Part shown: in pieces, positions 4,575-36,874 of the stretch
Layout: every line of letters starts with the position of its first letter
Numbering within the stretch: the stretch's first letter is position 1
Source: Gammaproteobacteria bacterium
GTDB taxonomy: Bacteria > Gemmatimonadota > Gemmatimonadetes > Longimicrobiales > Gaopeijiaceae
Assembly: GCA_009843625.1 (NCBI GenBank)
Contig: VYDD01000127.1
Span: 337-44,595 of the forward strand
Length of the DNA stretch: 44,259 nucleotides
Direction: 5' to 3'
The notes under the pieces: generated by a model
Databases searched by the model: none
The model's input: the letters and a program-made list of their open reading frames with translations, nothing else
What the model was told of the DNA's origin: nothing
Translations under genes and position numbers: made by a program

Positions 4575-6344
4575 TCAGTACCCCAGAGCCCTTCCGCCGC
4601 GCCGGGGATCGGACCACGCCGTGAGCAGACCGTCCACGACGACGATCATCTGGACATCGCCGGAGAGGCCGCCCCGCTCCACTACGACGTGACCGAGCGC
4701 CTCCAGCCGCGAGACGGTCTCCGGCGAGAGCGCTCCCGCCTCGTAGAAGATCTGGTCCGGCAGATGCTGGTGATGGACCCGCGGCGCCAGAACGGCCTCG
4801 ACCACATCCATCTCGAAGTCCACGACGTTTGAGATCGTCTGGAACACCGTGGTGATGATGGTCGCGCCACCCGGGGTGCCGGTGACCATTCGCAGCTCTC
4901 CGTCCGGCCCCAGGACGATGGTCGGCGACATGGAGGACAGCATCCGCTTCCCCGGCTCGATGGCGTTGTTCTCGCCCTGCACCAGGCCGAACTGGTTGGC
5001 GAAGCCGGGCCTGGCGGCGAGGTCGTCCATGTCGTTGTTCAGAATGAAGCCCGCCCCGGTGACGGTGACCTTGCTTCCGTACCAGGAGTTCACCGTCGTG
5101 GTGACCGACACGGCGTTGCCGTCGGCATCGACGATGGAATAATGGGTCGTGTTCTCGCCCTCCTCGGGGACCGTGGCACCGGGAGACGTCGCGGCTTCGC
5201 CCGCGCTCTCCAGTCCGGGACCGATCTCGGAGGACGGAGTGGCGGCATCCAGGGAAATGGTCGCTCCCCGCTCGCTCGCGTACGCCGCCGAGGTCAGGTT
5301 CTCCAGCGGCATTTCCACGAAGTCCGGATCCGCCAGGTAGTGGTTGCGGTCGGCATAGCCTCGCCGCCAGGCCTCGGCATGCAGATGGATCGTCCGCGCC
5401 GACTGCCAGCCAAGGGAGGCAAGGTCGTAACGCTCCAGGATCCCGGCGGTCTGGGCCATCGTGACGCCGCCGGACGACGGGGGCGGCATCGAGATGACCG
5501 TGTGGTCCCGGTATTCGAACGCGACCGGCTCGCGCCAGACCGCCTGGTACTCGGCGAGATCCCGGCGGGTGAGGATGCCGCCGCCACGTTCCATCTCGGC
5601 GATGATGAGGTCGGCCGTTTCCCCTGCGTAGAAGTCGTCGCGGCCGAGATCGCGGAGGCGCCTCAGAGTGCTGGCCAGGTCCGGTTGGCGGAGCGTGTCC
5701 CCGACGGCGGGCGGCTGGCCTCCGCGGGGCAGGAACTGCTCCGCCGAGGCCGGAAAGGCCTGAAGGGCCGCGACCATCGCGTCGCCCAGGGAGTTCAGGA
5801 AGCGCGGCCGCACGGGGAAGCCTCCGGCAAGCTCGATGGCGGGATCCAGGAGCGCGGCCCATTCCATGCGCCCGAAGCGCCGATGGATTTGCCACATTCC
5901 GTCGACGGTTCCGGGCACGCCGACGGATAGATGGCCGACGACGACGTCCTCCGTGACTTCGCCGGCGTCATCCAGGTACATGTCCCGCGTCGAGGCGAAG
6001 GGGGCGCGGGCGCGAAAGTCGAGAGCCGCCGTTTCGCCGCCTGCCGTCCGAAGCACCAGAAACCCGTCACCTCCGAGGTTCCCGGCTTCCGGGTTGACCA
6101 CGGCCAGCGCGAACATCACCGCTACCGCGGCATCCATCGCGTTCCCGCCAGACCTGAGGACGTCGACACCGACCTGGCTGGCGAGTTCATCGGTCGTGAC
6201 GACCATCCCGTTGGTCGCGGTGACGGGGGCAGGTGTGTCCCGGTACCGCCACGACTCCGGAAACGCGGTCCCTCTCGCCGGCGAGGGATCCCCACAGCCG
6301 ATGCAGGCAAAGAGCGCCAGGGCGAGTGCCGCGTGAACTCTCAT
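4575..6344 (-). CDS. ggt: Gamma-glutamyltransferase
   Basis: Lipoprotein-like leader; TTHYSIVDADGNAVSVTTTVNSWYGSKVTVTGAGFILNNDMDDLAARPG (catalytic Thr region), KRMLSSMSPTIV, TGTPGGATIITTV. Confidence 0.95.
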   Translation of the reverse strand: MRVHAALALALFACIGCGDPSPARGTAFPESWRYRDTPAPVTATNGMVVTTDELASQVGVDVLRSGGNAMDAAVAVMFALAVVNPEAGNLGGDGFLVLRTAGGETAALDFRARAPFASTRDMYLDDAGEVTEDVVVGHLSVGVPGTVDGMWQIHRRFGRMEWAALLDPAIELAGGFPVRPRFLNSLGDAMVAALQAFPASAEQFLPRGGQPPAVGDTLRQPDLASTLRRLRDLGRDDFYAGETADLIIAEMERGGGILTRRDLAEYQAVWREPVAFEYRDHTVISMPPPSSGGVTMAQTAGILERYDLASLGWQSARTIHLHAEAWRRGYADRNHYLADPDFVEMPLENLTSAAYASERGATISLDAATPSSEIGPGLESAGEAATSPGATVPEEGENTTHYSIVDADGNAVSVTTTVNSWYGSKVTVTGAGFILNNDMDDLAARPGFANQFGLVQGENNAIEPGKRMLSSMSPTIVLGPDGELRMVTGTPGGATIITTVFQTISNVVDFEMDVVEAVLAPRVHHQHLPDQIFYEAGALSPETVSRLEALGHVVVERGGLSGDVQMIVVVDGLLTAWSDPRRGGRALGY

Positions 6345-6541: not shown

Positions 6542-6910
6542 CGGAGCGCACGAGTGAGGATCGCTGGCGGGTTCGCCCGCTGGAGGAAAGTCCGAGCTCC
6601 ACAGGGCAGGGTGCCGGGTAACGCCCGGGCGGCGTAAGCCGACGGAAAGTGCCGCAGAGAGCAGACCGCCGATGGCCCCCCGGGGCACAGGCAAGGGTGA
6701 AAGGGTGCGGTAAGGGCGCACCGGGCCGCTGGCAACAGGGGCCGCATGGCAAACCCCACCCGGAGCAAGGCCGAATAGAGGACGAGGAGTCGCCCGCTCC
6801 GCCCGAGTCCCGGGTAGGCCGCACGAGGCCGGCAGCGATGCCGGTCCCAGATAAATGATCCTCCCCCGTCTTCGGGCGGGGACAGAACTCGGCTTATTCC
6901 GTGCGCTCCG
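6542..6910 (+). ncRNA. rnpB: RNase P RNA, bacterial type A
   Basis: GAGGAAAGTCCGAGCTCC, ACAGGGCAGGGTGCCGGGTAACGCCCGG, AGTGCCGCAGAGAGCAGACCGCC, GGGTGAAAGGGTGCGGTAAG, GAGCAAGGCCGAATAG, AGATAAATGATC, ACAGAACTCGGCTTAT; P1 is 10 bp: CGGAGCGCAC (6542-6551) with GTGCGCTCCG (6901-6910). Confidence 0.97.
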
Positions 6911-6943
6911 CCGCGGGGGCGCAGCCGGTCTCGGCCGCAACAG

Positions 6944-7017
<74 letters not shown>

Positions 7018-12639: not shown

Positions 12640-12856
12640 GGTCTGGTCTCCGGGCGAGGGCCTGCGGGGCCACGCGGGCGGGGGTGCGAGCCTTGAGCCT
12701 ACGGGGGCCGGATCGGCATGGCAAACCGGCACGGCCACCTCGGGGCGGTCCGCGGCGAAATGTGGCACGACTCTTGCCACGTGTTTCCCCAATCGGACCT
12801 GGCTGAAACCGGACATGCGCCGTTCGCGTAAGGCGCCGGGAGACAGGGGGAGTGGG

Positions 12857-13024
12857 ATGAGCACGGAAGAACGAATCAGGCACCTGGGAAGAGCGGCATC
12901 GAGGGCGGAGGATGAAGGGAGGTACCGGGAAGCCCGCAATCTGCGGCTTCTGGCGCGTGACGCTCGACCCATCTCTTCCTTGAAGGACGTTCCGAACATT
13001 CCCCTGGCCGGTTCGAGGGAATGA
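12857..13024 (+). CDS. Small 55-aa charged protein of unknown function
   Basis: MSTEERIRHLGRAASRAEDEGRYREARNLRLLARDARPISSLKDVPNIPLAGSRE; purine-rich RBS GGGGGAG before ATG; followed by a hairpin. Confidence 0.5.
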   Translation: MSTEERIRHLGRAASRAEDEGRYREARNLRLLARDARPISSLKDVPNIPLAGSRE

Positions 13025-34825: not shown

Positions 34826-34855
34826 TTGGACAAACGCGGGCGGCATCGCTACTTT
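34826..34855 (+). promoter_or_regulatory. Candidate promoter of the ncRNA/leader
   Basis: TTGGAC-18 nt-TACTTT. Confidence 0.45.
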
Positions 34856-34860
34856 TGCCC

Positions 34861-35055
34861 TGCGTTTCGGAGGCCCATCGATAATTGAGCCAACACAATG
34901 AGGCCGGGACTGGCTCTCGCGCCGGACGCAACGCCCCGGGAAAGGGGACTGCGGAACTCGCGGGGAGGTCGCCAAGGATTCGTACCCGGGCTTCAAATAT
35001 CTCCTCCGAAATGCCGGGAGGCTGGCGTCCGACGGGGCGCCGGTCTCCTGTTTTT
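34861..35055 (+). ncRNA. Candidate structured ncRNA or leader RNA with its own terminator
   Basis: 12-bp closing helix 34862-34873/35003-35014 (one G-U), rod-like interior pairings, then a 13-bp terminator hairpin and TGTTTTT. Confidence 0.4.
35017..35055 (+). terminator. Rho-independent terminator
   Basis: GGAGGCTGGCGTC (35017-35029) pairs with GGCGCCGGTCTCC (35036-35048) through 13 bp including three G-U, followed by TGTTTTT. Confidence 0.7.
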
Positions 35056-35093
35056 CTGATGGTCGTATTCGTGTCCGCAGCGGGAAGGGAGAG

Positions 35094-35510
35094 ATGCCGC
35101 GGGTAAGGATCACGCGGAGAATGCACTTCTGCGCCGCCCACCGACTGCACCGGACCGACTGGTCCGATGAGCGCAACCACGAGGTGTTCCGCAGCTGCGC
35201 CAATCCCAACTGGCACGGCCACAACTACGAGTTGGACGTGACCGTGGAGGGACCGGTCGACCCGGACACGGGTTACGTCATGGACCTGAAGCAGTTGCGC
35301 GATCTGGTGCAGGGCGGTGTGATCGACGAAGTGGACCACGCCAACCTGAACATGGATGTCGGTTGGCTGGACGGGATCATTCCCACCACGGAGAACGTGG
35401 TGGTGGCGATCTGGCACAGGCTGCGCGAACGCATGCCTCCGGAGGTGGAACTGGTGAAGCTGATCCTGTGGGAGACGCCGAGAAACCGGGCGGAGTACTC
35501 GGGTGAGTAG
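35094..35510 (+). CDS. 6-pyruvoyl-tetrahydropterin synthase (PTPS-I type)
   Basis: [20 protein letters not shown] (CxxxxxHGH), [52 protein letters not shown]. Confidence 0.92.
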
Positions 35511-36159
35511 CCGCGGTCTGGGACTCCTGCGGGGGAACGGCCCCGCCCCGGGTCGAGCGAAGGCAGCCGGTTCCCCCGCGGATTCGCTGGCCCGGGCCTC
35601 GTTCGAAGAACTCGTGACCGAGATCATCCGCCGCATCGGCGAGGATCCCGGCCGGCAGGGTCTGGTGCGCACGCCGGAACGGGTGGCGCGGGCGATGGAG
35701 CTCTTCACCAGCGGGTACGCGCAGGCGCCCGAGGACGTGATGGCCGGCGCGCTCTTCCAGGAGAGCCACCAGAACATGGTGCTGGTGCGCAACATCGAGA
35801 TGTATTCCCTGTGCGAGCACCACCTGTTGCCGTTCTTCGGCAAGGTCCACGTGGCGTACATCCCGAACGGGCGGATCGTCGGGCTATCCAAGACCGCGCG
35901 CATCGTCAACGTCTTCGCGCGCCGGCTCCAGGTTCAGGAGCGGCTGACCGAGCAGATCGCCCAGGGGCTGTGGGATGTCGTGCATCCACAGGGCGTAGGC
36001 GTGATCGTGGAGGCGCACCACCTGTGCATGATGATGCGTGGCGTCGAACAGCAGAACTCCTCGACCCTCACGTCGGCGATGCGCGGGTCGTTTCTGGAGG
36101 ACTCGCGGACCCGCGAGGAATTCCTCGCGCTGGCGCTGAAGGCGGGGAACCTGGAGTAA
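35503..36159 (+). CDS. folE: GTP cyclohydrolase I
   Basis: [80 protein letters not shown]. Confidence 0.97.
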
Positions 36160-36163
36160 GCCC

Positions 36164-36874
36164 GTGAGCGACCTTGCGGGCTGCTCCGCGCTGGTGACGG
36201 GCGCGACCAGCGGAATCGGCGCAGCGTGCGCGCGAGCCCTGGCATCCGCCGGGGCGGAGGTGTTCCTGGTGGCGCGCCGGCGCGACCTGCTCTCCCGCAT
36301 CGCGGACGAGACCGGCGGGCACGATCTGCCCGCGGATCTCGGCGACGACAGCCAGGTGGAGGACCTGTCGGCGGAGGTGGCGGCGCGCCTGGACGGTTCG
36401 CCCGATGTCCTCGTCCACGCGGCGGGCGTGTTCTCCCTCGCCCCCCTGCACGAGACCGGCGTGGAGGATCTGGACCGCAGCCTGACCGTCAACCTGCGGA
36501 GCGCCTTCCTGTTGGCGCGCGCCTTCCTTCCCGGCATGCTGCGCCGGAACCGCGGACACATCGTGCTGGTGGGATCGGTGGCGGGACGCACGGCGTTTCC
36601 AGAGAACAGTGCCTACTCCGCCTCCAAGTTCGGGCTGCGCGGCATGCACGAGGTGCTGCGCGAGGAAACCCGCGGAACGGGCGTGCGCACTTCGCTGGTC
36701 GAGCCGGGCGCGTGCGACACTCCGCTCTGGGATCCCATTGACCCGGAGCGCCATCCCGGGCTTCCGCCCCGGGACGGAATGCTCGAGCCTCGGCAGGTGG
36801 CCGAGGCGATCCTGTTTCTCGTCACCCGCCCCTCCAGCGTTCAGATCCCCCTTCTGCAGATCGAGCGCACGTGA
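36164..36874 (+). CDS. Short-chain dehydrogenase/reductase (candidate sepiapterin-reductase-like step)
   Basis: VTGATSGIGAACARAL, VLVGSVAGRTAFPENSAYSASKFGL (YxxxK); 4 nt after folE. Confidence 0.92.
   Translation: MSDLAGCSALVTGATSGIGAACARALASAGAEVFLVARRRDLLSRIADETGGHDLPADLGDDSQVEDLSAEVAARLDGSPDVLVHAAGVFSLAPLHETGVEDLDRSLTVNLRSAFLLARAFLPGMLRRNRGHIVLVGSVAGRTAFPENSAYSASKFGLRGMHEVLREETRGTGVRTSLVEPGACDTPLWDPIDPERHPGLPPRDGMLEPRQVAEAILFLVTRPSSVQIPLLQIERT

Follow-up and report, generated by a model that had tools for sequence, protein, structure and literature searches.

A probable divergent 6S RNA (ssrS) across the phylum Gemmatimonadota

Introduction

6S RNA imitates an open promoter and keeps RNA polymerase in check. 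In E. coli, the ssrS gene that encodes it is followed by fau, annotated as 5-formyltetrahydrofolate cyclo-ligase. The pRNA start site of the E. coli molecule is U44, and the 6S RNAs of B. subtilis and A. aeolicus form a so-called central bubble collapse helix, in which distal nucleotides of the 5' bubble pair with the 3' strand of helix P2 (PMC8876501). A further relevant system is Ms1 of Actinobacteria, a 6S-like rod that occurs throughout a phylum lacking an annotated 6S RNA, and that binds the core polymerase. Our literature survey found no paper on 6S RNA that also names Gemmatimonadetes, Gemmatimonas or Longimicrobi-, a mention in a supplement being possible.

Here, we analyzed a stretch of 44,259 nucleotides from contig VYDD01000127.1 (assembly GCA_009843625.1, of gemmatimonadotal lineage), hereafter the window. 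The first-pass annotation had proposed a structured RNA at 34826–35055, with 6S RNA as the first idea and a leader of the downstream pterin operon as the alternative. Our analysis indicates that this RNA is a divergent, phylum-wide and apparently unannotated 6S RNA (ssrS) of Gemmatimonadota, a reading to which we assign a probability of about 0.93. The RNA resembles E. coli ssrS (the RF00013 type) in its size, in the layout of closing stem, bubble and apical stem, in a P2 helix with UGAGCC...UUCA at the equivalent place, in a probable pRNA start region and in having a neighbor from the folate/pterin pathway (fau in E. coli; PTPS-folE here). Unlike the 6S RNAs described by RF00013, the window copy falls below the detection level of that model.

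Fold and conservation of the RNA

The elements of the locus, all on the forward (+) strand of the window, are as follows, each with the evidence on which it rests.

34826–34855, +: predicted promoter TTGGAC-18-TACTTT; weak against the consensus, with similar elements at the equivalent place in relatives
34862–35055, +: full extent of the predicted 6S RNA gene (ssrS), roughly 190 nt with the terminator; matches of models R1 and R2
34862–34873, +: 5' strand of the closing stem, with its partner at 35003–35014; one G-U pair, covariation
34880–34891, +: 5' strand of helix P2 (GAUA-A-UUGAGCC), the predicted pRNA template; minimum free energy (MFE) fold, covariation, alignment to CUGAGCC of E. coli ssrS
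34892–34911, +: 5' strand of the central bubble, carrying GAGGCCGGG at 34900–34908 as the predicted 5' strand of a bubble-collapse helix; conservation and constrained folding
34894–34894, +: inferred template position of the pRNA start, with predicted pRNA 5'-GUUGGCUCAAUUAUCGAUGGG; in the alignment, it lies opposite the U within E. coli GAGCCGAU, the start site U44
34912–34966, +: apical rod with hairpin CCCC-GGGAAA-GGGG; covariation of the apical helices
34985–35001, +: CCCGGGCUUCAAAUAUC, the 3' strand common to P2 (34989–35001) and the alternative collapse helix (34985–34994); folding and covariation
35003–35014, +: 3' strand of the closing stem; fold and covariation
35015–35055, +: intrinsic terminator with a 16-bp stem, 4-nt loop and TTTTT (hairpin 35015–35050); sequence, and hairpins at the equivalent place in relatives
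35094–36159, +: neighboring genes outside the RNA, PTPS (35094–35510) and folE (35503–36159); Pfam PF01242 and PF01227

Folding of the region 34862–35055 gave an MFE of -96.9 kcal/mol, against -79.3 +/- 4.7 kcal/mol for shuffled sequences (z of -3.76, with 1 of 200 shuffles equally good), and the MFE structure comprises the closing helix of 12 bp along with the apical rod and the terminator hairpin. Together with the conservation seen in relatives, these values bear out the proposal of a structured RNA at this position. Sequence searches with blastn placed the RNA at 96–100% identity within the genus and at about 70–79% in other genera of the family.

The pairing itself is conserved: across 22 relatives, 92.9% of the cells of a 40-pair structure were paired, compared with 84.1% upon shuffling and 37.9–54.0% when the partners were slid, and 23 of the 40 pairs showed two-sided changes with pairing kept—values reached by none of 500 shuffles. 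The 12-bp helix between 34862–34873 and 35003–35014, described initially with one G-U pair, is present as such, and the covariation check on relatives spoke clearly in its favor, with two-sided changes in 10 of 12 pairs among 22 sequences and in all 12 among 78. The apical helices covary in both the 22- and the 78-sequence alignments; one MAFFT alignment (A2) was left out, its 3' closing strand being misaligned. As both the closing and the apical helices covary, the RNA is delineated as a rod of closing stem, large asymmetric central bubble and apical stem, which, at about 160–200 nt, is the architecture of 6S RNA.

A short protein-coding gene, at 34885–35106 or 34898–35059, would be another way to account for the interval, in which open frames of 73 and 53 amino acids are indeed present. 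The ATG at 34898 is unconserved, frame-shifting length differences occur in 13 of 21 relatives and most frames contain stops. The reading frames, which the first-pass annotation had named as a point to examine, are therefore not conserved among relatives, and we regard a coding function as practically dismissed.

Identity and distribution

Searches against Rfam, at gathering as well as loose thresholds, returned no credible match on the window locus, and a search of the whole genome of origin with RF00013 up to an E-value of 10 gave no match, in the interval or elsewhere; the Rfam comparison suggested in the first-pass annotation hence left the window copy unrecognized. SRP RNA was ruled out as an identity, its gene being located elsewhere in the same genome. 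Two covariance models were built instead. R1 derives from 22 relatives and has the main fold with a GAAGCC helix; R2, which replaced the R1 structure, derives from Gemmatimonadota sequences only and contains a 6S-type P2. The window copy is the single R1 match in its whole genome (E-value of 2e-28), and R2 matches it at 34858–35025 with 124.7 bits.

R1 matched 283 of 298 sampled Gemmatimonadota genomes (111 of 119 genera), nearly always once per genome. R2 recovered four of the 15 genomes without an R1 match, so that the RNA occurs in about 96% of the 298; in the other 11, the majority of which are fragmented assemblies, neither model found a copy. Near-complete genomes without a match to either model include G198 (3.1 Mb in 2 contigs, 92% complete), G190 and G059, in which the RNA has either been truly lost or diverged strongly. 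When 84,980 species genomes were scanned for an exact pattern, 30 loci emerged, all labeled Gemmatimonadota, Gemmatimonadetes, Gemmatimonadales, Longimicrobiales or Gemmatimonas. Two copies were observed in some genomes of f3 and in one of f5 (f1 to f11 being our labels for families within Gemmatimonadota), namely in G044 (L083 and L084), G036, G048, G052 and G278; in G044, one copy lies beside PTPS-folE while the other is diverged and located elsewhere, resembling the 6S-1/6S-2 pair of Bacillus.

Members of sister families provided a link to 6S RNA. At an E-value of 1 or below, RF00013 matched 32 of the 298 genomes, mostly from f5, with 3 of 298 above the cut-off. In 26 of these 32 genomes, the RF00013 match shares its place and strand with an R1 or R2 match—for example, at 51028–51188 versus 51024–51198 (G278, contig C30) and at 12796–12979 versus 12801–12979 (G229, contig C365)—while, of the other six, G310 and G225 were non-coincident and four fell outside the position comparison. 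Two coincident matches exceeded the gathering score (L063 with 56.6 bits and L064 with 53.3 bits), and many of the coincident loci lie upstream of PTPS-folE, as in the window. Independently built models meeting at near-identical ends in 26 multi-megabase genomes cannot be a product of chance. The RF00013 match in G225 (E-value of 0.7) is distant from the R1 match and was taken as a chance hit. In G310, the RF00013 match (L062, 62.5 bits, contig C266) was set aside, being missed by R1 and R2; it looks like a proteobacterial 6S RNA although the assembly is gemmatimonadotal, and since a normal copy is found on a different contig of G310, L062 may represent a foreign contig or contamination.

The reverse comparison points in the same direction. 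In a 10-kb stretch of E. coli K-12 (L162), R2 ranked ssrS, annotated at 4984–5166, first, with a match at 4993–5162 on the right strand (E-value of 0.008, the next being 0.29; the model E-values are rough and the score of 15.6 bits is modest). The alignment sets CUGAGCCGAU with UUGAGCCAAC and GGGUUCAAGGG with GGGCUUCAAUAA. R1, unlike R2, did not find E. coli ssrS. The RF00013 coincidence, the R2 match to ssrS and the covariation of P2 (see below) support the original idea of a 6S RNA and, at the level of sequence comparison, establish homology. Hence, the RNA is not a new class, but a divergent 6S RNA that goes unrecognized by Rfam in most Gemmatimonadota genomes.

Helix P2 and the predicted release of the RNA

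In the MFE fold, UUGAGCC (34885–34891) pairs with GGCUUCAA (34989–34996) as a 6S-type helix P2, and the invariant UUGAGCC...GGGCUUCAA corresponds to this helix across families, with compensatory changes. The conserved P2 (UGAGCC/GGUUCA) lies beside the bubble, as expected of a 6S RNA. We found 94.1% of the P2 cells paired, with two-sided changes in 49 cells and in 6 of 10 pairs, and none of 500 shuffles scored as high—even though the alignment used had been fitted to a competing helix and not to P2. One pair is A-U in 31 sequences, U-A in 23 and C-G in 7, and in four f2 sequences, UUGGGCC is matched by GGGCUCCAA, with G-C in place of A-U. The motif GAGCC(A/G)A(C/U), which covers the pRNA start region, forms with P2 the most conserved part of the RNA.

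These observations bear on whether the molecule could be a 6S-like RNA of the Ms1 kind, which would bind the core polymerase instead of the holoenzyme and would not template pRNA synthesis. Ms1 is structurally related to 6S RNA (PMC9130861), and secondary structure alone cannot separate the two. However, the strongest conservation falls on precisely the pRNA start region and P2, and members of sister families match the 6S model of Rfam; we thus deem an Ms1-like RNA very unlikely, and holoenzyme binding is what 6S homology would predict here.

For the 6S RNA favored by these data, the strand CCCGGGCUUCAA can enter either of two competing helices, i.e., P2 (UUGAGCC/GGCUUCAA) or a helix formed by GAAGCCGGG and CCCGGGCUUC. 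The latter relates to a GGCCGGG/CCCGGGC stem that the first-pass annotation had placed within the main rod: the stem exists as an alternative helix, but the MFE fold has P2 on the same 3' strand. The GAAGCCGGG element is conserved in f1 and f3, and in part also in f2 and f5, with GAGGCCGGG as the window version, and the GAAGCCGGG/CCCGGGCUUC helix is paired in 87% of cells, displays few two-sided changes and is missing in f4. Folding calculations favored P2 in the free window RNA (P of 0.84), whereas the strand switched to the collapse helix (P of 0.89) once the 5' side was blocked as far as the predicted start of the pRNA. The same switch was calculated for 19 of 27 f1, 6 of 7 f3 and 0 of 10 f4 sequences, and was absent in most f5 sequences.

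The geometry of this second helix equals that of the central bubble collapse helix (PMC8876501), and we therefore read it as the release form; the GGCCGGG/CCCGGGC stem would fit a collapse helix that frees 6S RNA after pRNA synthesis. By homology, the rod would imitate an open promoter and occupy the RNA polymerase holoenzyme containing the primary sigma factor. When NTPs return, the polymerase would start copying at about 34894 and proceed back past 34885, yielding a short predicted pRNA, 5'-GUUGGCUCAAUUAU..., a synthesis that would open P2; the freed CCCGGGCUUC strand could then pair with GAGGCCGGG, collapsing the bubble and releasing the RNA. That the RNA is expressed, binds polymerase, templates a pRNA from 34894 and is released by bubble collapse is in each case projected from described 6S RNAs. 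The comparison also reveals differences: γ-proteobacterial 6S RNAs have a 9-bp hairpin in the 3' bubble, whereas a bubble-collapse helix is predicted to act in release here, and the latter, in contrast to those of B. subtilis 6S-1 and A. aeolicus 6S RNA, is G-C rich and near-invariant in f1 and f3 but lacking from other families of the phylum.

Transcription unit and genomic context

The terminator and a promoter-like element suggest that the RNA forms its own transcription unit. The proposed promoter TTGGAC-18-TACTTT is present, but it agrees with the consensus at only 3 of 6 positions in each hexamer, and a consensus scan of the locus did not report it; the equivalent position in relatives is occupied by TATATT or TATCTT, often with TTGAC upstream (-35), which renders the window element plausible despite its weakness. 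A terminator is present, as claimed, and is a strong intrinsic one, but its stem is 16 bp long instead of 13 and adjoins the closing helix immediately, its first nucleotide being 35015.

Downstream of the RNA and on the same strand, the window encodes PTPS, folE and a short-chain dehydrogenase (35094–36871). This order of 6S RNA, PTPS, folE and short-chain dehydrogenase on one strand is kept through much of the phylum, and the genes upstream of the RNA vary between loci. Among 76 loci with enough flank, 52 have a same-strand PTPS that starts within 600 nt downstream of the RNA, across f1–f5 and f9; in f6, PTPS lies 1.3–1.4 kb from the RNA. Such proximity in several families is what a cis-acting leader of the PTPS-folE operon, with a riboswitch-like aptamer and a terminator, would predict. 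However, the last nucleotide of the closing helix is 35014 and the first of the terminator is 35015, with none in common, and both can therefore form together, leaving no antiterminator and no switch geometry; aptamer and expression platform share no strand, and PTPS is not always downstream. Furthermore, the RNA persists intact with its own terminator where unrelated genes follow, e.g., cytochrome b (L024) or a luciferase-like monooxygenase (L123), and 6S homology already explains the conserved bubble. The leader proposed as the alternative in the first-pass annotation is thereby weakened to an exceedingly unlikely reading, and the RNA is best seen as a trans-acting 6S RNA with a conserved neighbor—given its intact occurrence elsewhere and a terminator free of overlap with the closing helix.

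The recurrent position beside pterin/folate genes, which parallels the ssrS-fau arrangement of E. coli, constitutes a lead, and the folate/pterin theme common to both loci may be a coincidence. A functional tie, in which read-through past the 6S terminator, set by polymerase sequestration, would couple pterin/folate synthesis to growth phase, appears unlikely to us.

Implications

The RNA appears to fill a gap, as the Rfam 6S cut-off is passed in 3 of 298 genomes versus a presence in about 96% of them. The alignments yield a better 6S detection model for the phylum along with a predicted pRNA that is amenable to testing, and the natural variants with and without a strong collapse helix provide a means to study 6S release. 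The window also carries an RNase P RNA of class A at 6543–7017, followed 30 nt downstream by a tRNA gene.
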